64,000 nucleotides of DNA from NCBI RefSeq assembly GCF_028532485.1, contig NZ_CP116942.1, positions 3,410,001-3,474,000 on the forward strand, read 5' to 3'. Source of the DNA: Iamia majanohamensis. Lineage in GTDB: Bacteria > Actinomycetota > Acidimicrobiia > Acidimicrobiales > Iamiaceae. The notes under the pieces were generated by a model that searched no databases, was not told where the DNA came from, and saw nothing but the letters and a program-made list of their open reading frames with translations. A program made the translations under genes and the position numbers. Shown piece by piece: positions 51,530-63,840 of the stretch. Every line of letters begins with the position of its first letter. The stretch's first letter is position 1.

Positions 51530-52894
51530 TCAGCCCGCGGCCAGCACCTCGTTGGCGGCGCGCTCGCCGCTGCGGACGGCACCGTCCATGTACCCGTTCC
51601 ACACCGCCGCCGTCTCGGTGCCGGCCCAGTGCACCCGGCCCCACGGCTCCCGGAGCAGGTCCCCGAACGAGGACCACACGCCGGGGGCGAGGTGGGCCCC
51701 GTAGCAGCCGCGGGTCCACTCCTCGGCGGCCCAGTCCCGCTCGGCGTAGTCGACCGGGCTCGAGGCGCGGGGACCGAAGAAGCGGGCCAGGGACCGGGTG
51801 ACCAGCAGCTCGCGCTCCCGGGGCGACAGCTCGGCGGCGCGACGGGCGTGGTCGCCCTCGAGGAAGGCGACGATCACGCCGGGGGCGCCCTCGGTGGGGA
51901 GCGTGTTGTCGAAGGTGATGGTGACGGGGTCCTCGAGCGACGCCACCTGGCCGCACAGGCCCTCGTCGCGCCAGAAGGGCTCGTCGTAGACGACGAGGCA
52001 CTTGGTGACGCTCCCCATGGGCACCTTCTGCAGCAGCTGGTCGCGCCGGGCGGGCAGGAGGGGGCTCCAGCGGATGCGCCCGGCCAGGGTCGGGGGCACG
52101 GCGACCACGGCCCGGCCGGCGCGCACCTCCCCCCCGTCGTGGCGCACCACGACGGCGTCGTCGCCCTGCTCCACCGCCCGCACCGGCGCCCCCAGCCGGA
52201 TCTCGACGCCCTCGTGGCGCAGCCGGTCGGCCAGCCGCTCGGCGAGGACCACGCTGCCGCCGGCGATGCGGTCCTGCTGGGCCCCCCGCCGGGTGCCGAG
52301 CAGCCGCTCCAGGGAGCCGCCGGAGCCGATGTAGAAGGCGACGTGGAGCAGCGAGATGTCGCGGGGCTCGGCCGCGAACACGGCCTCCACGGCGAGGCGC
52401 CAGAAGGCGCGGGCGGTCTCGGTGCGGTGGTGGCGCCGGATCCAGGTCTCGAAGGTCTGGGCGTCGAGGGCGTCGGCGCCCCGGGTGGCCCAGGGCGAGT
52501 CCAGGTCGACCCGGCGGGCGATGCGCTCCAGCCGGGGCTGGGACACGGCGATCTCGGCCACCGCCGCCGGCGGGAGGCCGAAGGTGGGGCTGCGGTGGCG
52601 GACGACCCGGCCGCTCCGCACGGTGAGCAGCGCGCCGGTGTCGTAGGTGGGGTAGGTGGCGGCCTCCACCTCGGCCGCCAGGGCCAGGACCCGGTCCTGG
52701 GTTGGCCCCACCCACTGGCCGCCGATCTCCACCTCGGAGCCGTCGGCGAAGCGGTGGTTCACGATCCGGCCGCCGACGCGGTCGCGGGCCTCGACCACCA
52801 CCACCGACCGCCCGGCCCGGGACAGGTCGCGCGCCGCGGCCAGCCCGGCCAGCCCGGCGCCGACCACGACGACGTCGACCACGTCCTCAGCCAC
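51530..52894 (-). CDS. flavin monoamine oxidase-family protein
   Basis: 454 residues. Dinucleotide-binding VVVVGAGLAGLAAARDLSRAG, then GGRIVNHRFADGSEVEIGGQWVG (GG doublet typical of the amine-oxidase family), and C-terminal FAD-contact block GRVHWAGTETAAVWNGYMDGAVRSGERAA. It oxidises amines with release of hydrogen peroxide. It may alternatively be a related demethylase/desaturase; substrate unknown. No Sec signal. It overlaps the AI-2E-family gene start region by eight bases on the same strand. Confidence 0.92.
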   Translation of the reverse strand: MAEDVVDVVVVGAGLAGLAAARDLSRAGRSVVVVEARDRVGGRIVNHRFADGSEVEIGGQWVGPTQDRVLALAAEVEAATYPTYDTGALLTVRSGRVVRHRSPTFGLPPAAVAEIAVSQPRLERIARRVDLDSPWATRGADALDAQTFETWIRRHHRTETARAFWRLAVEAVFAAEPRDISLLHVAFYIGSGGSLERLLGTRRGAQQDRIAGGSVVLAERLADRLRHEGVEIRLGAPVRAVEQGDDAVVVRHDGGEVRAGRAVVAVPPTLAGRIRWSPLLPARRDQLLQKVPMGSVTKCLVVYDEPFWRDEGLCGQVASLEDPVTITFDNTLPTEGAPGVIVAFLEGDHARRAAELSPRERELLVTRSLARFFGPRASSPVDYAERDWAAEEWTRGCYGAHLAPGVWSSFGDLLREPWGRVHWAGTETAAVWNGYMDGAVRSGERAANEVLAAG

Positions 52895-54116
52895 GGTCGC
52901 CCTCCTCGGGGGTCCGCCGACCCCTGACCCGTGCGACCAGCCTGCGCAGCGGCGCCGGGAGGCGGTCGACCAGGCGGGTGGGGGCGGGCGGGGCCTCGCC
53001 GAAGCGGGCCTCCTGGTACACGGCCTTCACCGTGCCGCAGAGCGGGGTGGCGGCCAGGGCCCCGGGCACGCCGGCGGCGGCCCCGCCGACGAGGGCGGCG
53101 AGCATGGTGACCGGCGGGGAGAGGTCGACGGCCTCGCCGACGATGGCCGGGGTGATGACGTAGTTCTCGAGGTTCATGTAGGCCACCACCAGCACGAGCA
53201 CGATGAGGGCGGGGACCACCCCCTGGGTCAGGGCCAGGAGGGTCACGAAGGACGTGCCGAGGAACCCACCGACCTGGGGGATGAGCGACACCACGGCGTA
53301 CCAGACGGCCGCGACCGGTGCGAGGGGCACGCCCACGGCGAGCCCCACGACGAGCACCCACGTGCCGCCGATGGTGGCCACCAGCAGCGAGCCGGCGAAG
53401 TAGGTGCCCACGACCCGGTAGAAGACCCGCCCCACGGCGTCGGCCCGCTCGCGGTGCTCCTCGGGCACCACCAGCCGCAGCCGGTCGACCAGCCGGGGCC
53501 CGTCGAGCAGGACCACGACGGCGACGAACAGGGCCCCCAGCCCGTTGAGGGCGCCGTTGAGCACCCCGCGGGCGGCGTCGCTGATCCCGTCGGCGTCGAT
53601 CCGGCCGGGGAGGTCGTCGATGCGCTGCTCCACGCGGGAGGCGAAGTCGGCCTCGGCCAGGCGGTCGCCCACGACCGGGAGGGACTCGATCTCGGTGAGG
53701 GTCCGGGGCAGCTCGTCGCCGAAGTCCTGGGCCTGGCGCACCGCGGCCGGTCCGACCAGCAGGGCCAGGGCCACGAACACGGCGACGAGGGCGGCGCCCA
53801 CGACCCCGACGGCCACCCCCCGGGACGCGCCGGTCCGCCGCTGCACGCCGAGGACGAGGGGCTCGACCGCGAAGGCGAGGAGCACGCCGACGCCGATCAC
53901 GGTGAGGGACCGGACCGTGGACTCCAGGAACGCGGCCCCCACGAAGAGGGCGAGGAGGGCGAGCACGAGCCAGATGGCCGAGCGGGGGTCGATGCTGACC
54001 GTGAGGCGCTCGTGGGCCTCGTCGCCGGGGGCGGACGGGTCGGCCCCCACCACCGCGGCGCCGAGGTCCGGGGGCCGGCCCTCGCCCGGCCCGGGGTCGT
54101 CGCGGGCGTCGGGCAC
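52887..54116 (-). CDS. AI-2E family membrane protein (leftward copy)
   Basis: 409 residues with about eight hydrophobic segments of the AI-2E/PerM superfamily (VVSLIPQVGGFLGTSFVTLLALTQG, NLENYVITPAIVGEAVDLSP). Family members export small solutes or act as ion antiporters; the name reflects one studied case. The first 40 residues are hydrophilic, so GTG at about 53999 (SIDPRSAIWLVLALL) is an alternative start. As annotated it lies only 20 bp from the divergent homologous gene. C-terminal tail is Arg-rich. Its stop overlaps the amine oxidase gene. Confidence 0.88.
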   Translation of the reverse strand: MPDARDDPGPGEGRPPDLGAAVVGADPSAPGDEAHERLTVSIDPRSAIWLVLALLALFVGAAFLESTVRSLTVIGVGVLLAFAVEPLVLGVQRRTGASRGVAVGVVGAALVAVFVALALLVGPAAVRQAQDFGDELPRTLTEIESLPVVGDRLAEADFASRVEQRIDDLPGRIDADGISDAARGVLNGALNGLGALFVAVVVLLDGPRLVDRLRLVVPEEHRERADAVGRVFYRVVGTYFAGSLLVATIGGTWVLVVGLAVGVPLAPVAAVWYAVVSLIPQVGGFLGTSFVTLLALTQGVVPALIVLVLVVAYMNLENYVITPAIVGEAVDLSPPVTMLAALVGGAAAGVPGALAATPLCGTVKAVYQEARFGEAPPAPTRLVDRLPAPLRRLVARVRGRRTPEEGDRG

Positions 54117-54136
54117 GGTCGGTACGGTACGTCGCC

Positions 54137-55183
54137 GTGGACCGCCGGGTGCGCCTCACCATCGGTCCCGCCGCCCTGGCGGTGGTGTTCGCGGCCATCG
54201 TCGGCGCCCTCGTCCTGCGCAACGTGCTGGAGGCGGGCCGGCGGCCCCTCGGCTGGGCCCTGGCCGCGGTCGTGGCCGCCGCCGCCCTCGAGCCGGTCGT
54301 GTCGCTGGCCAGCCGGCAGGTGCGGCGCAGCGTGGCCCTCGTCGTCACCGTCGTCCCCCTCCTCGCCCTGGTCGGGCTGGTGACGTGGGCGTCGGTGCGC
54401 GACCTCGACGCCCAGGTGCAGATCCTCCAACGGGACATCCCGGAGGTGGCCCAGGACATCCAGGACTCCGAGCGCTTCGGCGACGCGGCCACGGAGTTCG
54501 ACCTCGTCGGCAAGGCCGAGGCCTTCGCCGACGACCTGCGCCGGCCGTCCAGCCGGGTGGGCGAGGAGGCCCGGGGCGGGGCCTCCACCTGGGCCCTCAC
54601 CCTGATCCTCACGCTCTTCGCCCTGGGCTGGGGGCCGCGCTTCAGCGAGGCCGCCCAGCGCCAGGTCCGCGACCCGGCGACGCGGGACCGGCTCACCCGC
54701 GTGGTGGGCCGCGCCTTCGAGCGGAGCCAGGTCTACGTCGATGTCGCCGTCCTGCTCGCCCTGGCCACCGGCCTCCTCGCGTGGGTCGCCTTCACCCTCA
54801 TCGACCTCCCCGCCCCCACCCCCCTCGCCCTGCTGGTCGGGGTGGCCAGCCTGGTCCCGTCGCTCGGCGTCGCGGTGGCGACCGTCCCGGTGGCCGTGCT
54901 CGCCTGGGGCGTGGTGTCGCCCGGCGCCGGCCTGGCCCTGCTCGTCGGCGGGATCGTGCTCCAGGTCCTGCACCGGCTGGTGCTCAACCGGGCCACCCGG
55001 GGCGCCGCCCACCCGGGGGCGGCGGTGATCGTCATCTCCTTCATCCTCGGCTACGAGCTCTACGGCGTGGGCGGCGCCGTGGTCGGGGTGGCCCTCGCCG
55101 TCTTCGCCGCCGCCGTGGCCGACTCCGTCGCCGAGGAGCGCGCCGGACCCGTGGAGCCCACCCCCGACGCGCCCGGTGTGTGA
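54137..55183 (+). CDS. AI-2E family membrane protein (rightward copy)
   Basis: 348 residues, distant paralogue of the divergent protein, with hydrophobic segments at LAVVFAAIVGALVL, VALVVTVVPLLALVGLV and a C-terminal block VSLVPSLGVAV and LILTLFALGW. The superfamily signature PQ(V/I)G is replaced by VPSLGVAVAT. The middle part (VQILQRDIPEVAQDIQDSERFGD) is periplasmic helical as usual. Role unknown. The pair may form a hetero-oligomer or be alternative transporters; inference only. Confidence 0.8.
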   Translation: MDRRVRLTIGPAALAVVFAAIVGALVLRNVLEAGRRPLGWALAAVVAAAALEPVVSLASRQVRRSVALVVTVVPLLALVGLVTWASVRDLDAQVQILQRDIPEVAQDIQDSERFGDAATEFDLVGKAEAFADDLRRPSSRVGEEARGGASTWALTLILTLFALGWGPRFSEAAQRQVRDPATRDRLTRVVGRAFERSQVYVDVAVLLALATGLLAWVAFTLIDLPAPTPLALLVGVASLVPSLGVAVATVPVAVLAWGVVSPGAGLALLVGGIVLQVLHRLVLNRATRGAAHPGAAVIVISFILGYELYGVGGAVVGVALAVFAAAVADSVAEERAGPVEPTPDAPGV

Positions 55184-55234
55184 TCGGGCCCCGCTCCGGG
55201 CAGGGTGGGCCGCCCACCCCCGATCGGAGCGCCC

Positions 55235-55540
55235 ATGACCACCACCACGACGAACGTCCCCGAGGAGCAGCGCTGGGAGCTGCGGGTCGACGGCGACCTG
55301 GCCGTGGTGGCCGAGTACCGCCTCGACGACGACCGCATCACCTTCACCCACACCCGCACCGAGCCCGACCACCGGGGCGAGGGCCTGGCCCGCCAGCTGG
55401 TCGACGCCGCCCTGGCCGACGCCCGCGACCGGGGCCTCGCCGTGGTGCCCGAGTGCCCCTACGTGCGCAAGGTGGTCGGCGAGGACGCCGACCTGGTGGC
55501 CCTCGTGCCCGCCGACGACCGGGATCGGCTGGGCCTGTGA
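55235..55540 (+). CDS. small GNAT-type N-acetyltransferase (copy 1)
   Basis: 101 residues, the YjdJ-like mini-GNAT fold: [63 protein letters not shown]. The acetyl-CoA loop is RGEGLARQL. Substrate unknown. The stop overlaps the next gene start by four bases. The next protein is a paralogue, so this is a coupled tandem pair. Confidence 0.88.
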
Positions 55541-55890
55541 CCGGGGCGGGACCCGACGGGGCGATGCGACGCGGAGAGGGGTCGGAGGTCATCGAGGTGA
55601 CCGACCACGACGACGCCGACCGCTACGAGGTGCACGTCGACGGCGCCCTGGCCGGCTACGCCGACCGGCACGTGGCCGACGGGACGATGGTGCTGCCCCA
55701 CACCGTCGTCGATCCGCGCTTCCGGGGTCGCGGGCTGGCCGCCCGGCTGGTGCGCCGGGCCCTCGACGACGCCCGGGCGCGCGACCTGGCGGTGGCCCCG
55801 GCCTGCTCCTACGTGGCCGACTTCCTGGCCCACCACCCCGACGACCTCGACCTGGTGCCCGCGCCCGAACGCCCCCGGTACGGCCTCTGA
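55537..55890 (+). CDS. small GNAT-type N-acetyltransferase (copy 2)
   Basis: 117 residues, the same fold with [41 protein letters not shown]. The acetyl-CoA loop is [12 protein letters not shown] 55537 overlaps the upstream stop; ATG 55564 is an alternative that omits a nine-residue tail. Similar length and order of motifs to copy 1 suggest tandem duplication. Confidence 0.85.
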
Positions 55891-56845: not shown

Positions 56846-58048
56846 CTAGGCGGAGGGCTCGGTGCCCACGATGCCGACGAAGCTCACCATCTCCCCCGGG
56901 TAGCCCCCGAGGTTGTGGGTGAGGGCCAGGGTGCGGCCCGCATCGACGGTGGCCACCTGGCGCTCGGCCGGCGCCTCCCGCCGCAGCTGCAGCCACGCCT
57001 CGTACATCATGCGGAGGCCGCTGGCCCCGACGGGGTGGCCGAAGCTCTTGAGCCCGCCGTCGGGGTTGACCGGCAGCTCCCCGTCGAGGTCGAAGGTGCC
57101 CTTCTCGCAGTCGGTCCACGCCTCGCCCCGGGCCGAGAAGCCGAGGTCCTCCATCAGCACCAGCTCGGTGGGCGTGAAGCAGTCGTGCACCTCGGCCAGG
57201 GCCAGCTCGCCGCGGGGGTCGGTGATGCCGGCCTGGGCGTAGGCGTCGGCGCCGGCGGCCTCGATCTCGGGGAACGTCGTGTAGTCGTAGGACGGGTCGA
57301 TGAGCCCCGAGCCGTTGCCGGCGACGAGCGAAAGGGCCTTCACGAAGAGGGGGGAGTCGGTGTAGCGGTGGGCGTCCTCGGCCCGGCACACGACGGCTGC
57401 GGCGGCGCCGTCGGCCACCCCGGCGCAGTCGAAGACGCCGAGCTGGCCGGCCACGGCCGGCATGTCGCAGATGGCGTCGACCGACATCTCCCGGCGGAAC
57501 TGGGCCTTGGGGTTCTTGGCCCCGTTGGCGTGGTTCTTGCTGGCGATGCGGGCCGCGACCCGGCGCAGCTGGTCGGGGTCGACGCCGTAGCGCTCGGCGT
57601 AGGCGGGCAGGACCATGGAGAACATGGCCGCCGCGGTGAGCGTGCGGTTGGTGCCGTCGGTGGGGATCGGGAAGGCGTTGAGGCCCTGGTAGCCGGAGTC
57701 CTTGACCTTCTCCACGCCCACGGCCACGGCCAGGTCGTAGGCACCGGAGGCGACCGCGTAGGACGCGGCCCGCAGGGCCTCGGAGCCGGTGGCGCACATG
57801 TTCTCGACGCGGGTGACCGGCGCCCCCTCGAGCTGGAGGGCCTTGGCCAGCATGATGCCGCTCATGCCCGACTGGGCCGTGCCCACCCACCAGGCGTCGG
57901 CGTCGGCCCGGGTGATGCCGGCGCCGTCGAGGGCCTCGGTGGTGGCCTCCACCATCAGGTCGTCGAGGCCCTTGTCGAAGTGCTCGGCGAAGGGCGTGCA
58001 GCCCATGCCGACGATGGCGACCCGGTCGCGGATGCCGTGCGATCCCAT
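56846..58048 (-). CDS. SCP-x-type thiolase
   Basis: 400 residues. The nucleophile is in VENMCATGSEALRAA (Cys85), the SCP-x motif is EVHDCFTPTELVLMEDLGF, and the C-terminal GHPVGASGLRMMYEAW carries the active-site His. This subgroup cleaves 3-ketoacyl-CoA or, as in steroid-degrading Ltp2, acts as a retro-aldolase with a DUF35 partner. The next gene upstream encodes a DUF35 domain, which favours such a complex. It follows that gene by 14 bases in one operon. Confidence 0.92.
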   Translation of the reverse strand: MGSHGIRDRVAIVGMGCTPFAEHFDKGLDDLMVEATTEALDGAGITRADADAWWVGTAQSGMSGIMLAKALQLEGAPVTRVENMCATGSEALRAASYAVASGAYDLAVAVGVEKVKDSGYQGLNAFPIPTDGTNRTLTAAAMFSMVLPAYAERYGVDPDQLRRVAARIASKNHANGAKNPKAQFRREMSVDAICDMPAVAGQLGVFDCAGVADGAAAAVVCRAEDAHRYTDSPLFVKALSLVAGNGSGLIDPSYDYTTFPEIEAAGADAYAQAGITDPRGELALAEVHDCFTPTELVLMEDLGFSARGEAWTDCEKGTFDLDGELPVNPDGGLKSFGHPVGASGLRMMYEAWLQLRREAPAERQVATVDAGRTLALTHNLGGYPGEMVSFVGIVGTEPSA

Positions 58049-58062
58049 GGCGTGGTCCTCTC

Positions 58063-59514
58063 TCAGCCGGCCTCGGCCGCGGCGGCACGGACGACGGTGC
58101 CGTCGGCGTCCCTGACGGGCCGGGCCTTCCAGAAGTAGTTGGCGATGCCGTCGGCGGTGAACAGCCGGCGGAAGGTCATCTCGACGCGGACGCCGATGCC
58201 GACCTCGGCCGCGTCGCAGTCGGTCAGCTCGACCGGCACCCGGCCCCCGCCGTCGAAGTCGACGATGGCGAACACGATGGGCGGGCTGGGCGAGTAGGCC
58301 AGGCGGTCGATGGTGGAGGTGACCACCGTCCCGGTGGCGTCGGCCATGGGCCGGGGCTCCATGTCGTCGATGGGCCCGCCGTGCATGGCGGCCCGGGCCG
58401 GGGGCATGTGCACCGCGCCCGACGTGCGGTCCTCGGAGGCCACGTAGCCGAACTTCCACTCCGCGCTGCGGGCCGCGGCCGACGCCGACGGCCGGGCCGG
58501 CTCGGGCCGCCGGGGCGGCTCGGTGGCGAGCAGCCCCCGCCAGCGCAGGTAGGTGGGGTACTCGACCGGCGCGCCGGCCGCGACCTGGTCGGCCACGGGC
58601 CGGGCCGACGGCGTCGCCGCGACCTCGTCGGTGGCCCGGAACACGAGGGCGTCGGCCCCGTCGGCCAGCGACACCAGGGCGATGAGGTCGCCCGGCGCGG
58701 CCTCCTCGAGGGCGGCGACGAGGAGGAGCAGCGGCTGGGTGGCCCCCGGGTTGCCGACGGTGCTCCCCAGGTCGTCGCCCACGACCTCCGGGGCGACGCC
58801 CAGCTTGCGCCCCGCGCTGCGGGCGGCCCGGGCGTGGGGGCTGGCCACCAGCACCCGGTCGAGGTCGCCCGCCTCCAGGCCGGCCTCGGCGAGGGCGGCG
58901 TCGAGCGCGGCCCGGCCGAGGGGCACGTAGCGCTGCTCGCCGAAGCGGTCCTCCCACTGGCGGGTGCGGGCGTCGCCCGGGGTGCGCCAGCGGTCGAGGA
59001 ACTCCTCGGTGCGGGCCCCGGCCCCGACCAGCTCGGCCCGGACGGGCAGCGCGTCGGTCCCCTCGCCCACGAGCAGAGCGGCGGCGGCGTCGCCCCCGGC
59101 GGCCTCGTCGGGGCTCCCCGGCAGCCCGGGGCGCACGTCGGCCGCCACCACCAGCGTGGGCCCGCCGCCGGCCAGGGCGGCGCGCAGGGCGACCACCGAG
59201 GAGCGGGCGGCGCCGGCGAAGTCGGCCGCGACGGCGTGGTCCGGGAGGCGCAGGGCGGCGTGGACCGCGGTGGCGTTGGTCTTGTCGGCGTAGGTGGGGG
59301 TGGTGGTGGAGAACCACAGCGCGGCGGGCGCGGCGTCGGGGTGCGGGCGCAGCGCGGTGCGGCCGGCCTCGACCGCGAGGGTGGTGGCGTCCTCGTCGTA
59401 GCCGGCCACCGTGCGGGTGCCCCTGCCCCCTCCCCCGCCGGCCACCGCGGCGATGTCCCGCCGGTCGAGGCGTCGGTGCGGGAGGTGGGCGCCGAGGGCG
59501 AGGATGCCGCGCAT
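58063..59514 (-). CDS. KAS III/HMG-CoA synthase-like protein fused to a DUF35 OB-fold domain
   Basis: 483 residues. Residues 1-310 form a thiolase-like fold (ILALGAHLPHRRLDRRDIA, VAADFAGAARSSVVALRAAL, VGDDLGSTVGNPGATQPLLL). The usual catalytic Cys position reads Ala (AGAARSS), so condensing activity is doubtful. From about residue 350 a zinc-less DUF35 OB-fold follows (FAIVDFDGGGRVPVELTDCDAAEVGIGVRVEMTFRRLF, ANYFWKARP), known to shuttle acyl-CoA to SCP-x thiolases. ATG 59514 is seven bases after TAGGCT, so the message is nearly leaderless. First gene of the operon. Confidence 0.85.
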   Translation of the reverse strand: MRGILALGAHLPHRRLDRRDIAAVAGGGGGRGTRTVAGYDEDATTLAVEAGRTALRPHPDAAPAALWFSTTTPTYADKTNATAVHAALRLPDHAVAADFAGAARSSVVALRAALAGGGPTLVVAADVRPGLPGSPDEAAGGDAAAALLVGEGTDALPVRAELVGAGARTEEFLDRWRTPGDARTRQWEDRFGEQRYVPLGRAALDAALAEAGLEAGDLDRVLVASPHARAARSAGRKLGVAPEVVGDDLGSTVGNPGATQPLLLLVAALEEAAPGDLIALVSLADGADALVFRATDEVAATPSARPVADQVAAGAPVEYPTYLRWRGLLATEPPRRPEPARPSASAAARSAEWKFGYVASEDRTSGAVHMPPARAAMHGGPIDDMEPRPMADATGTVVTSTIDRLAYSPSPPIVFAIVDFDGGGRVPVELTDCDAAEVGIGVRVEMTFRRLFTADGIANYFWKARPVRDADGTVVRAAAAEAG

Positions 59515-59530
59515 GGGCCGAGCCTACGGG

Positions 59531-59555
59531 GAGATCTGACGGGGTGTCAGATCTC
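59531..59555. promoter_or_regulatory. operator inverted repeat IR1
   Basis: Perfect 10-bp arms GAGATCTGAC-GGGGT-GTCAGATCTC. It lies five bases upstream of the TAGGCT -10 box (59526-59521, minus strand) of the KAS/thiolase operon, so it covers the -35. A further half-site GATCTGAC occurs at 59579-59586, toward the DUF4436 promoter. The core ATCTGAC-N5-GTCAG is shared with IR2. Confidence 0.75.
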
Positions 59556-59624
59556 GGTCGCGTGACGGACGTGACGGCGATCTGACCCGCTCCCCCGACG
59601 CCCCGCCCCTAGCGTGGTCCGGCC

Positions 59625-60653
59625 GTGGACCCCGACCGCCCACCTCCCCCGCCGCCGTCCCACCCGGGCGCCGAGCTGCCCGAGGACGCCGCCCTGCGGC
59701 GTCGTCGGGCCGAGCGGGCCCGCGAGGCGCTGGCCTCGCCCTGGTCGGCCTCCCGTGCCCGGCACCTCCGGATCATCGCCCTCGTCCTGGTCGTCGTCGG
59801 GCCCGTGATCGGCACGCTCTTCGCCCTGGTGCTGATCCCGGCCGAGCCCTCCGACGTGGTCACCGCCGAACCCCCGGACCCGCCGCTGCTCGACGCCACC
59901 GCCACGGTGCGCAACATCGACCCGACCACCAACGAGATGACCCTGCGGTTGGTGCTGTCCGAGCCGGTCTCCGGGTCCGGGAGCGACCTGGAGGACCCGG
60001 GCCTCTTCGACGGCGGGGTCCTGAGCGAGCCCGTCGCCGTGGTGGTGAACGACTCCGCCGGGGAGAACGTGCGCCTGCTGCCCGGGGGTCAGGCGCCGGG
60101 ATCGATCGGACTCACGCTGCCGCTCTCGAGCTCGCGCGTCACCCGCTACCCGGTCGACCGGTACGACACGACCCTGCTCGTCCAGGCCCGGCGGGGCAGC
60201 ATCGACGGCGACCCCGTCCCGGTGCGCCTGACGGTGCGCTCCAACGACCCCCTCTTCACCACGGTGGCGACCGAGGCCGAGGCCACCCCGATGGCCGCCG
60301 CGACCGACCTCCGGGTCCAGCGCCGGTGGACGGTGGTCGGCTGGGCCGTCTTCTTCGTCATCCTCTGCTGGATGCTCGCCATCTCGGCCGCCTCGGTCGG
60401 GTGGATCACCGTGGTCCACGGCCTGAGCTCGCCGTTCTGGTGCTGGGGCTTCCTCGTCGGCGTGCTCTTCGCCCTGCCCCCCCTGCGCACCGCCCTGCCC
60501 GGCAACCCACCGGGTGGCTCGCTGGTGGACTTCGCCGCCTTCTACTGGGCCGTCGGCATCGTGGCCCTCACGATGGTGGCCATGATCGGGTCGTGGAACG
60601 TCCGGGTCCGACGGTGGCCCGACAACCCCGACGCCCCCCGCCCTCCCATCTGA
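59625..60653 (+). CDS. DUF4436 membrane protein
   Basis: 342 residues. An N-terminal hydrophilic arm, one membrane helix (LRIIALVLVVVGPVIGTLFALVL), an extracytoplasmic domain with RYPVDRYDTTLLVQARRG, then three further helices (VFFVILCWMLAISAASVGWITVV, FWCWGFLVGVLFALPPLRTALPG, IVALTMVAMIGSW). DUF4436 has no known function. GTG 59625 lies ten bases after TAGCGT, so the leader is very short. Its stop codon lies inside IR2 of the following gene. Confidence 0.88.
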   Translation: MDPDRPPPPPPSHPGAELPEDAALRRRRAERAREALASPWSASRARHLRIIALVLVVVGPVIGTLFALVLIPAEPSDVVTAEPPDPPLLDATATVRNIDPTTNEMTLRLVLSEPVSGSGSDLEDPGLFDGGVLSEPVAVVVNDSAGENVRLLPGGQAPGSIGLTLPLSSSRVTRYPVDRYDTTLLVQARRGSIDGDPVPVRLTVRSNDPLFTTVATEAEATPMAAATDLRVQRRWTVVGWAVFFVILCWMLAISAASVGWITVVHGLSSPFWCWGFLVGVLFALPPLRTALPGNPPGGSLVDFAAFYWAVGIVALTMVAMIGSWNVRVRRWPDNPDAPRPPI

Positions 60654-60664
60654 CGCACCGTCAG
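60650..60664. promoter_or_regulatory. operator inverted repeat IR2
   Basis: CTGACG-CAC-CGTCAG, part of a longer match ATCTGAC-N5-GTCAGGT to IR1. It lies 20 bases upstream of TACGCT (60685-60690), the likely -10 box of the CaiB gene, so it occupies the -35, and overlaps the DUF4436 stop codon. Confidence 0.65.
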
Positions 60665-60696
60665 GTCCTCGCCCCCTGCGGGCCTACGCTCCGGGC

Positions 60697-61938
60697 ATGC
60701 TGCTCGGAGACGTGATCGACCCCGACGCCCTGGCCCACGGCAAGCCCCTGGACGGCGTCCGCATCCTCGCCCTGGAGCAGATGCAGGCCCTCCCCTGGGC
60801 CACCCAGCTCCTGGCCCGCCTCGGCGCGGACGTGGTGAAGGTGGAGGCCATCGGCACCGGCGACCAGGGCCGGGGGTCCCTGCCGGCGATGACCGACCCC
60901 GAGGGCCGCCGGGTCGGCGCCACCTTCCTCCGCACCAACCTGGGCAAGCGCAGCACCTGCATCGACCTCCGCTCGGAGCGCGGCCGCCAGCTGGTGCTCG
61001 ACATGGCCCCGCAGTTCGACGTGGTGGCCGAGAACTTCCGCACCGGCGCCCTGGCCCGCCTGGGCCTGGCCTACGACGACGTGGCCGCCGTCCACCCGGC
61101 CGTCGTCTACCTCTCGGTCAGCGGCTTCGGCCACTCGGGCTCGCCCTACGGCGACATGCCCGCCTTCGCCCCCGTCGTCGAGGCCATGTCGGGCATCTAC
61201 GAGATGAAGCGGGAGGGCGACGAGCCGCCGCTCGTGGCCCCCGTGGGCGCCCTCGGCGACATCGGCACCGCCCTCTTCGGCGTCATCGGCGTGCTGGCCG
61301 GGCTGCGCCAGCGGGACCGCACCGGACGGGGCACCCACGTCGACGTGGCCATGCTCGACGCCATGGTCGCCATGACCGACATCGTCACCAACTTCTGGTC
61401 CATGGGGCTCCGCGGCGGCGAGCTCGGGCCGCTGCTGATGCACGGGTTCAGGGCCTCCGACGGGTGGTTCATCGTCCAGGTCGGCCGCGAGCACCAGTTC
61501 GCCCGGCTGGTGGAGGAGGTGGGCCACCCGGAGTGGGCCGACGACCCCCGCTTCGCCACCCGCCAGGGCTGGCTCGACCACCTCGAGGACGTGCTCCGCC
61601 CCGCCATCGAGGGCTGGGCCGCGGACAAGACCTCGCTCGAGGCCAGCCGGGCCCTCGGCGCCGTCGGCGTCGCCGCCGGCCCCTGCCTCTCCGACGAGCA
61701 GGTGGTGGCCGACCCCCACGTGGCCGCCCGGGACATGCTCGTCGAGGTGCCCCGCACCGACGACGTCGACCAGCCCGTCCTCGTCCCCGGCAACCCCGTG
61801 AAGATGAGCGGCGTGGCCCAGGGCCCCGAGACCCGCGTGCCCTGGCTGGGCGAGCACACCGACGAGGTCCTGGCCGCCGAGCTGGGCCTCGACGCAGAGG
61901 CCCTCGCCGCCCTCCGCGCCGACGGGGTCATCGGCTAG
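60697..61938 (+). CDS. CaiB/BaiF-type CoA-transferase
   Basis: 413 residues of the type III CoA-transferase family: LEQMQALPWATQLLARLGADVVKVE (nucleotide-like N-terminus), GRGSLPAMTDPEGRRVGATFLRTNLGKRS, DVVAENFRTGALARLGLAYDDV with the catalytic Asp position expected in the TGxLxxLGL block, and AIQVGREHQF-like segment. It moves CoA between carboxylic acids, or acts as a racemase in the related MCR group. ATG is six bases after the -10 box, so it is nearly leaderless. Control by the same repressor as the thiolase operon is inferred from IR2. Confidence 0.9.
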   Translation: MLLGDVIDPDALAHGKPLDGVRILALEQMQALPWATQLLARLGADVVKVEAIGTGDQGRGSLPAMTDPEGRRVGATFLRTNLGKRSTCIDLRSERGRQLVLDMAPQFDVVAENFRTGALARLGLAYDDVAAVHPAVVYLSVSGFGHSGSPYGDMPAFAPVVEAMSGIYEMKREGDEPPLVAPVGALGDIGTALFGVIGVLAGLRQRDRTGRGTHVDVAMLDAMVAMTDIVTNFWSMGLRGGELGPLLMHGFRASDGWFIVQVGREHQFARLVEEVGHPEWADDPRFATRQGWLDHLEDVLRPAIEGWAADKTSLEASRALGAVGVAAGPCLSDEQVVADPHVAARDMLVEVPRTDDVDQPVLVPGNPVKMSGVAQGPETRVPWLGEHTDEVLAAELGLDAEALAALRADGVIG

Positions 61939-62862: not shown

Positions 62863-63840
62863 GCGTCACGAGTGCCAGGAGGCCGCGCGGATTGGTGACC
62901 ATCCCCGGGTCGGAGCGGTGGCTCGCGTTTGATGGCGAGTGCGCCCAACACAACCGACCAGGGGAGGTCCCTCCCATGATGCGCGCGCTCGATCCCGAAG
63001 TCAGCGATGCGGTCTTCGTCACCCTCGAAGCCCTGCTGCCGGCGCCTCCCACGCACCGCATCGGAGGTGGACGACCAAGGGTCCCTGACCGGCTCATCTT
63101 CCGTGGTCTGCTGCAACGGATCGTCACCGGGGCCGCCTGGGAGACCATCGAGTTCCTGCTGGACCACCAGGTCTCTGACACCACCCTTCGAGCTCGCCGC
63201 GACGAATGGGTGCACGCCGGAGTCTTTGACCGGCTCGCCGCACAAGCCCGCGCCGCCTACGACACGATCATCGGTCTCGACACCGGCCACGTCGTCATCG
63301 ACGGCAGCAACCACCTCGCTCCCTGCGGCGGCCCCGGCACCGGTGTCGGCCCAGGTCAGAAGGGCCGCCTCGGCTGGAAGTGGTGCACCGGCGTCGACGC
63401 CGCAGGCATCCCGCTGGCCTGGACCATCGACGGCGCGAACCGCAACGACTACAAGATGCTCGGCCCCACCCTGGACGCCATCGCCGCCGATCCGAACCAC
63501 CTCAAGATCGGCACCCTGCACCTCGACCGAGGCTTCGGCTACGCCTCACTGCCCGACCGCCTCGCCGGCTACGACATCACCGCAGTCGACGTGATCCCCC
63601 GCAACCACCCCGGCCAAGGCCGGACCCCACTGGTCGGCTTCGGACACCGCTGGGTCGTCGAGCGGACCAACTCCTGGCTGTCGAACTTCGGACAGCTCCG
63701 CCGCAACACCGACCGACGCACCGAGCACCGTCACGCCGCCCTCTGCCTCGCCACCACCCTGCTCATCACCGCCAAGCTCATCGACCACCGCAACCACCAC
63801 ACCCGACCAATCCGCTGAGCCTCCAGGCACCTCGTGACGC
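62863..63840 (+). mobile_element. IS5-type insertion sequence
   Basis: 978-bp element. The terminal inverted repeats (62863-62896 and 63806-63840) are imperfect: both begin GCGTCACGAG at the outer ends and both contain GCGGATTGGT at the inner end. A single transposase gene lies between. No direct target duplication was seen: bases outside the repeats are CCCGG on the left and ACCCAC on the right, so the end may be a few bases off or the duplication short. Confidence 0.8.
62976..63818 (+). CDS. IS5-family DDE transposase
   Basis: 280 residues. The N-terminal part RPRVPDRLIFRGLLQRIVTG carries the DNA-binding region, then DDE catalytic blocks VVIDGSNHLAPCGGPG (first Asp), GTLHLDRGFGY (second Asp) and VVERTNSWLSNFGQLRRNTDRR (Glu of the Y-R-K/E signature). 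The start at ATG 62976 has GGGGAGG nine bases upstream; an ATG follows at once (MMRAL). It appears intact. The base composition is slightly less GC-rich than its neighbours, as expected for a transferred element. Confidence 0.93.
   Translation: MMRALDPEVSDAVFVTLEALLPAPPTHRIGGGRPRVPDRLIFRGLLQRIVTGAAWETIEFLLDHQVSDTTLRARRDEWVHAGVFDRLAAQARAAYDTIIGLDTGHVVIDGSNHLAPCGGPGTGVGPGQKGRLGWKWCTGVDAAGIPLAWTIDGANRNDYKMLGPTLDAIAADPNHLKIGTLHLDRGFGYASLPDRLAGYDITAVDVIPRNHPGQGRTPLVGFGHRWVVERTNSWLSNFGQLRRNTDRRTEHRHAALCLATTLLITAKLIDHRNHHTRPIR

Follow-up and report, generated by a model that had tools for sequence, protein, structure and literature searches.

Autoregulated TetR regulons of acyl-CoA genes, such as those of KstR2 and BkaR, are a well-known kind of bacterial control system, and EthR of M. 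tuberculosis acts at a monooxygenase gene. The operator of KstR2, which belongs to steroid-ring catabolism in mycobacteria and Rhodococcus, is given as AnCAAGnnCTTGnT, with three sites near the gene (PMC3068626); that of BkaR is written GTTA-N-T-N4-A-N-TAAC (PMC3920632), that of MftR T-N2-GGCA-N5-TGCC-N2-A (PMC8728441) and that of SCO3201 TGGCAGATTCTGCCA (PMC7324645).

Here we have followed up two near-identical inverted repeats, IR1 and IR2, in a 64-kb window (the whole stretch of DNA analysed), both beside genes of acyl-CoA metabolism. Computed directly were the motif itself, where it lies relative to promoters genome-wide, how well it is conserved, and its association with a TetR, both as co-occurrence and, in relatives, as adjacency to the gene. 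We consider it likely that IR1 and IR2 belong to a single dispersed regulon, with about 22 operators in all, run by a TetR_C_38 protein, for which we infer binding, repression, autoregulation and a ligand from the sequence patterns set out below.

Two inverted repeats and the genes around them

The repeats, their predicted promoters and the neighbouring genes are, in window coordinates:

56846..58048, minus strand: SCP-x-type thiolase, 400 aa, gene 2 of the KAS-DUF35 operon
58063..59514, minus strand: KAS-III/HMG-CoA-synthase-like + DUF35 (OB_ChsH2_C) fusion, 483 aa, the putative IR1 target
59521-59526, minus strand: predicted -10 of the KAS-DUF35/thiolase operon, TAGGCT, a sequence reading, 6 bp before the ATG
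59531..59555, no strand: IR1, perfect 10-bp inverted repeat with a 5-bp centre; core 59536-59550 = CTGACGGGGTGTCAG
59625..60653, plus strand: DUF4436 membrane protein gene, between IR1 and IR2, with its own -10 TAGCGT at 59610-59615
60648..60666, no strand: IR2, predicted operator ATCTGACGCACCGTCAGGT; core 60650-60664
60685-60690, plus strand: predicted -10 of the CaiB promoter, TACGCT, a sequence reading, 6 bp before the ATG
60697..61938, plus strand: CaiB-type (family III) CoA-transferase, 413 aa, the putative IR2 target

Further out lie two AI-2E-type transporter genes (52887-55183), divergent neighbours on opposite strands; two adjoining small frames with similar acetyltransferase-like sequences (55205-55890), apparently a tandem duplicate; and an IS4/5-type transposase gene (DUF4096 + DDE_Tnp_1, 62973-63818), which follows the CaiB gene at a distance of about 1 kb.

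IR1 reads GAGATCTGAC-GGGGT-GTCAGATCTC, and the core of IR2 is CTGAC-GCACC-GTCAG (CTGACGCACCGTCAG), preceded by AT and followed by GT. The shared word ATCTGAC-N5-GTCAG is real, both repeats being as the first-pass annotation described them, and its exact form has no third place in the window. One-mismatch matches number 4 against 2.9 expected, with at least 4 in 38 of 100 shuffles, a count so near chance that the window by itself is weak proof. The proposal that the sites lie over the -35 region is supported at both predicted promoters: CTGACA (59545-59550), the distal half of IR1, would sit at the -35 of the KAS-DUF35 promoter with an 18-bp spacer, and the predicted CaiB -35 position (about 60661-60667) is overlapped by the 3' edge of IR2. 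The -10-to-ATG spacing would be compatible with leaderless KAS-DUF35 and CaiB messages.

The DUF4436 gene, which the first-pass annotation had counted as a pathway partner, loses that place. In 8 other genomes it is absent from between KAS-DUF35 and CaiB, which diverge directly from each other at 65-193 bp, and its own -10 lies 59 bp past IR1, so that membership of the regulon is not supported. By tblastn across 61 loci (L172-L231 and L253, to about 1.5 kb past the match), DUF4436 was found in the window genome's two loci only; it was therefore probably inserted there between KAS-DUF35 and CaiB. Its stop codon (TGA, 60651-60653) falls inside the first half of IR2. A lone half-site, ATCTGACC, is also present in the DUF4436 promoter region at 59580-59587, 22 bp ahead of the DUF4436 -10.

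Distribution of the motif and a candidate regulator

A whole-genome search of the kind that had been proposed yields 23 copies of CTGAC-N5-GTCAG on the 4.58-Mb chromosome, against 0 for the reversed control pattern; 19 are CTGACGNNNCGTCAG, three are CTGACGGGGTGTCAG or its complement (including IR1) and one is CTGACCAGCAGTCAG. Judged on our own gene calls from a simple codon model, gene bodies hold none of the 23, chance occurrence in coding regions having been named beforehand as grounds for refutation, and 22 closely precede the start of one or more genes, mainly of acyl-CoA type; the distance is 51 bp or less for 21 of them and 102 bp for site 291464. A local two-promoter regulon, as first suggested, is thereby ruled out, the 22 promoter sites being spread over the chromosome. 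IR2 and site 3608641 each also meet the 3' end of the gene next to them. The exact site at 2516768 (CTGACCAGCAGTCAG) lies between convergent gene ends and was discounted as a chance match or a terminator. Looser matches are less telling: sites with two mismatches number 216 genome-wide against 275 for the reversed control, which is uninformative, and among eight further one-mismatch sites two are inside genes and four between or at convergent gene ends. One-mismatch site 943511 lies 35 bp before a DUF3105 gene. Another, CTGATGGGCCGTCAG (L061:13377-13391, genome position 3612876), stands between divergent genes, one of them an SDR, and is probably a further regulon member.

The candidate regulator is one of 51 TetR_N hits in the genome, that is, itself and 50 others:

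2886279-2886962, genome position, 583 kb from the window sites: candidate regulator, TetR_N + TetR_C_38 (PF19352)

Its TetR_C_38 domain scores 153.1 bits against a Pfam cut-off of 23.9 (244.1 bits in a Streptomyces relative), and its TetR_N helix-turn-helix domain 28.6 bits against a cut-off of 24. The model of a relative 85% identical to it (L092) has the TetR fold, with nine helices and a pLDDT of 93.2. EthR is the best solved relative by profile (E ~5e-11) and by fold, EthR entries giving the best matches of that model (TM-score 0.75-0.80 of query), yet at an identity of only ~18%; FadR, FasR and DesT are the next-nearest structures, and several of these regulators have been solved with acyl-CoA.

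The distance of 583 kb agrees with the earlier observation that no regulator gene adjoins the window sites, and the related expectation, that a TetR gene should carry the same site, held in some relatives and failed in the window genome. There the site nearest the candidate gene, 2889821, heads its run, 3 kb upstream: a tight series that starts 15 bp from the site and encodes an isochorismatase-like hydrolase, a FadD3-family ligase, an HvfX/DoxX-like protein (below cut-off) and, fourth, the TetR. Sites with up to one mismatch come no nearer than 2.8 kb to any TetR hit of this genome, so the link in the window genome rests on the gene run. Among 29 relatives, nine have a site with up to one mismatch in the 150 bp ahead of the TetR match, where 104 kb of sequence holds 12 such sites altogether, and 20 have none within 150 bp of the gene. 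In Aquihabitans sp. G128 the same frame layout recurs (for the two middle frames the match is one of layout only), with a site preceding the isochorismatase homologue as well as one at the TetR.

Co-occurrence and conservation across genomes

Across 148 genomes of the order, at least three exact sites occur in 28 of the 42 with a TetR orthologue (above 120 bits; four genomes with only weaker hits are counted as lacking it) as against 1 of the 106 without. Counted by family, the figures are 17 of 23 and 0 of 38, and in nine mixed families site count tracks the TetR in most. Fewer than three sites are carried by 14 of the 42 TetR-positive genomes, four of these 14 carrying none. Conversely, one genome (G077) has six exact sites and no TetR_C_38 orthologue even by profile search (best 36.5 bits; assembly ~90% complete); either the orthologue is missing from the assembly or the motif is used there by another regulator. 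As a control we took the TetR near site 2256783 (presence above 140 bits), which was rejected as the regulator, with at least three sites in 15 of 58 genomes against 14 of 90 (p=0.14); a rank test is weakly positive (p=0.02), so that some of the association comes from relatedness and genome size.

Orthologous promoters follow the same division. For KAS-DUF35, among the best 30 of 80 matches, a site with up to one mismatch no more than 110 bp upstream is present in 15 of 24 TetR-positive loci (including the window genome) and in none of six TetR-negative ones; in one further TetR-positive locus a two-mismatch site is found close to the start. For CaiB, among the best 30 of 37 matches, an upstream site with up to one mismatch is found in 7 of 23 (including the window genome) and 0 of 7, respectively, and in one genome (G002) a single operator is common to both genes. 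Sites kept at orthologous promoters with the TetR and missing without it, G077 being the exception in the counts, are what one regulon under TetR_C_38 would predict. Furthermore, of the 49 exact sites considered in six relatives, 40 have a tblastn homologue of a window-genome target no more than 200 bp away, some of these matches being only 31-49% identical; the 49 comprise 14 of 15 sites in G133, 14 of 16 in G101, 7 of 7 in both G095 and G127, 4 of 7 in G005 and three, at one locus, in Aquihabitans sp. G128. Of the other nine, genes were scanned at six: two SDR, a MaoC, an FAD oxidase, a PNPOx and one without a Pfam match.

The pairing seems to reach further still, as in other actinobacteria, too, relatives of TetR_C_38 appear from sequence to recognise this word. 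TSPATFYQYF is invariant in 23 aligned relatives from several families (Streptomycetaceae, Frankiaceae and Actinomadura keep it), and the motif with up to one mismatch is found at 48 of 56 TetR-relative loci in Streptomycetaceae, 3 of 3 in Frankiaceae, 3 of 3 in Actinomadura and 16 of 18 Acidimicrobiia-like ones, a count in which L094, L095, L099, L104 and L111 are, judged by length, the same contigs as other loci. The Streptomycetaceae loci hold 123 matches against a mean of 6.5 for 20 same-composition control palindromes (one control reached 52); the loci are closely related, so these represent few independent events. In S. coeruleorubidus two sites with up to one mismatch occupy the gap from which acyl-CoA dehydrogenase and thiolase genes diverge. 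CTGATG variants of the motif also recur in Streptomyces loci.

A single TetR-type regulator for acyl-CoA genes, as the first-pass annotation had posited, is thus supported by TetR_C_38 co-occurrence, adjacency in relatives and the footprints, and it has to be weighed against other accounts. That the likeness of IR1 and IR2 is chance or plain promoter sequence could draw on the similarity of CTGACA/CTGACG to a -35 hexamer and on the chance-level one-mismatch count in the window; with 23 copies genome-wide against 0, placed at gene starts, and orthologous promoters keeping the site only in TetR-positive genomes, we find this scarcely believable. A weightier concern is that the operators are real but bound by another regulator that merely tends to co-occur with the TetR_C_38 gene. 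The six sites of G077 would be explained at once, as would the lack of a site adjacent to the TetR gene in the window genome, where 50 other TetR_N hits could supply the protein. We nevertheless judge it unlikely, given that the TetR gene is directly preceded by a site in 9 of 29 relatives, that site count tracks the TetR in most mixed families and that the TetR_C_38 protein is the only regulator among some 40 target proteins scanned. It is also conceivable that the same TetR is an activator, or a repressor at some promoters and an activator at others, since some targets have 20-31 bp between the end of the operator and the -10 downstream of it, with room for an activator and with ~10-bp phasing; with many operators covering the -35 or the -10/-35 spacer (1-11 bp), and the nearest solved structures, e.g., EthR, FadR and DesT, being repressors, we give this idea very little credence. 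We therefore retain repression by the TetR_C_38 protein as the preferred reading.

Targets, proposed mechanism and comparison with known systems

Where a -10 can be placed, operator-to-minus-10 distances are 1 (four times), 3, 8, 9, 9, 10, 10, 10, 11, 20, 21, 30 and 31 bp, with four more at 40-59 bp. The geometry set comprises 28 of 32 target starts, leaving out the transketolase, an 87-aa frame, a 186-aa frame and the GHMP kinase. TAnnnT was located at 20 of the 28 starts, three of the 20 overlapping the called start codon, which makes some starts doubtful; it follows the operator within 30 bp at 14 of the 28, against a shuffled mean of 1.8. The 16 of the 20 within 32 bp show steps of ~10 bp (R=0.79 at period 10; p ~2e-4 at 10.5), a pattern noticed post hoc, with the period chosen after looking. 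Coverage of the promoters by the operator fits repression, in which the TetR_C_38 protein would bind (AT)CTGACGNNNCGTCAG(AT), presumably as a dimer, over or beside the -35/-10 region of acyl-CoA-type catabolic promoters. The same protein would also control its own gene run, from the isochorismatase-like hydrolase through the FadD3-like CoA ligase and HvfX/DoxX-like protein to the TetR itself. RNA polymerase would be excluded as long as the TetR stays bound; a ligand, which is most likely an acyl-CoA of the pathway, would free the TetR from the DNA.

By Pfam, the targets include acyl-CoA dehydrogenases (3), AMP-binding CoA ligases (2), CaiB (2), an enoyl-CoA hydratase, thiolases, DUF35 proteins, luciferase-like oxidoreductases (3), Amidohydro_2 (2) and Amidohydro_3, as well as an SDR, an alpha/beta hydrolase, a Liv-type binding protein, an isochorismatase-like hydrolase, a flavin reductase, an aldehyde dehydrogenase and an FMO-like protein. 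Poorer-fitting neighbours are a transketolase, a molybdopterin oxidoreductase, a pirin and a GHMP kinase, all of which diverge from another target, and a DUF4214 gene, which is the sole gene at its site.

Several targets hint at the substrate. One CoA ligase is nearest to cyclohexanecarboxylate-CoA ligase, far under the cut-off (350 of 792 bits), and one acyl-CoA dehydrogenase matches Tcur3483 and 4x28, which we take to have a steroid role. The HMG-CoA-synthase-like domain, the DUF35 domain and the thiolase of the window operon each match a chain of 6ESQ, an acetoacetyl-CoA thiolase/HMG-CoA synthase/DUF35 complex with the same three parts, with which PhlA is grouped; unlike in 6ESQ and PhlA, the synthase-like and DUF35 parts are fused in the window protein, which scores 133.6 of the 244 bits set for the HMG-CoA synthase NCBIfam equivalog. 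One of the two Amidohydro_2 targets resembles the amidohydrolase-fold enzymes DitZ (1.9e-60) and PtmU3 (5e-34) in sequence and in aligned metal-ligand positions (Asp-x-His, His, Glu, Asp-x-x-His(-x-Asp/Glu)); PtmU3 is described as a diiron beta-hydroxylase accepting CoA-ligated substrates (PMC7782822). These likenesses suggest, as a lead only, cyclic acids as pathway substrates. Perhaps, and here we are speculating beyond what we would expect to hold, TetR_C_38 acts as master repressor over a pathway that is widespread in actinobacteria but undescribed, and in which cyclic carboxylic acids, terpenoid- or steroid-like, are degraded in the form of CoA thioesters by amidohydrolase-fold diiron hydroxylases together with luciferase-like oxidoreductases and a module of HMG-CoA-synthase-like, DUF35 and thiolase parts. 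It would sense a pathway acyl-CoA, with its operators set in 10-bp helical steps so that polymerase is always met from the same face.

In the open-access literature searched, the operator strings (including CGTCAGAT with topic words) gave no match, and no paper was found for TetR_C_38/PF19352 by Pfam name. The outcome is a proposed operator and regulon for the TetR subfamily PF19352. The pair seems to span genomes from the Acidimicrobiia type to Streptomyces and Frankia, which makes it testable in cultivable strains, and tying some 22 scattered promoters with no assigned substrate into one set makes the underlying catabolic programme addressable.

Among known systems, EthR offers a parallel in that one target in the window genome is FMO-like. 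BkaR, MftR and SCO3201 resemble the candidate as actinobacterial TetR proteins with palindromic operators and acyl-CoA or lipid targets or ligands (PMC3920632, PMC8728441, PMC7324645); as the regulator type they were rejected along with KstR2, the operators given in these sources differing from CTGACGNNNCGTCAG. KstR2 shares a good deal with the candidate: this TetR repressor regulates itself, acts on divergent promoters and lipid-type targets, and uses a short palindrome that lies 22-82 bp from most starts (PMC3068626). It differs in the operator word and in reach, with three sites near its gene, whereas the TetR_C_38 candidate would act through 22 sites across the chromosome.
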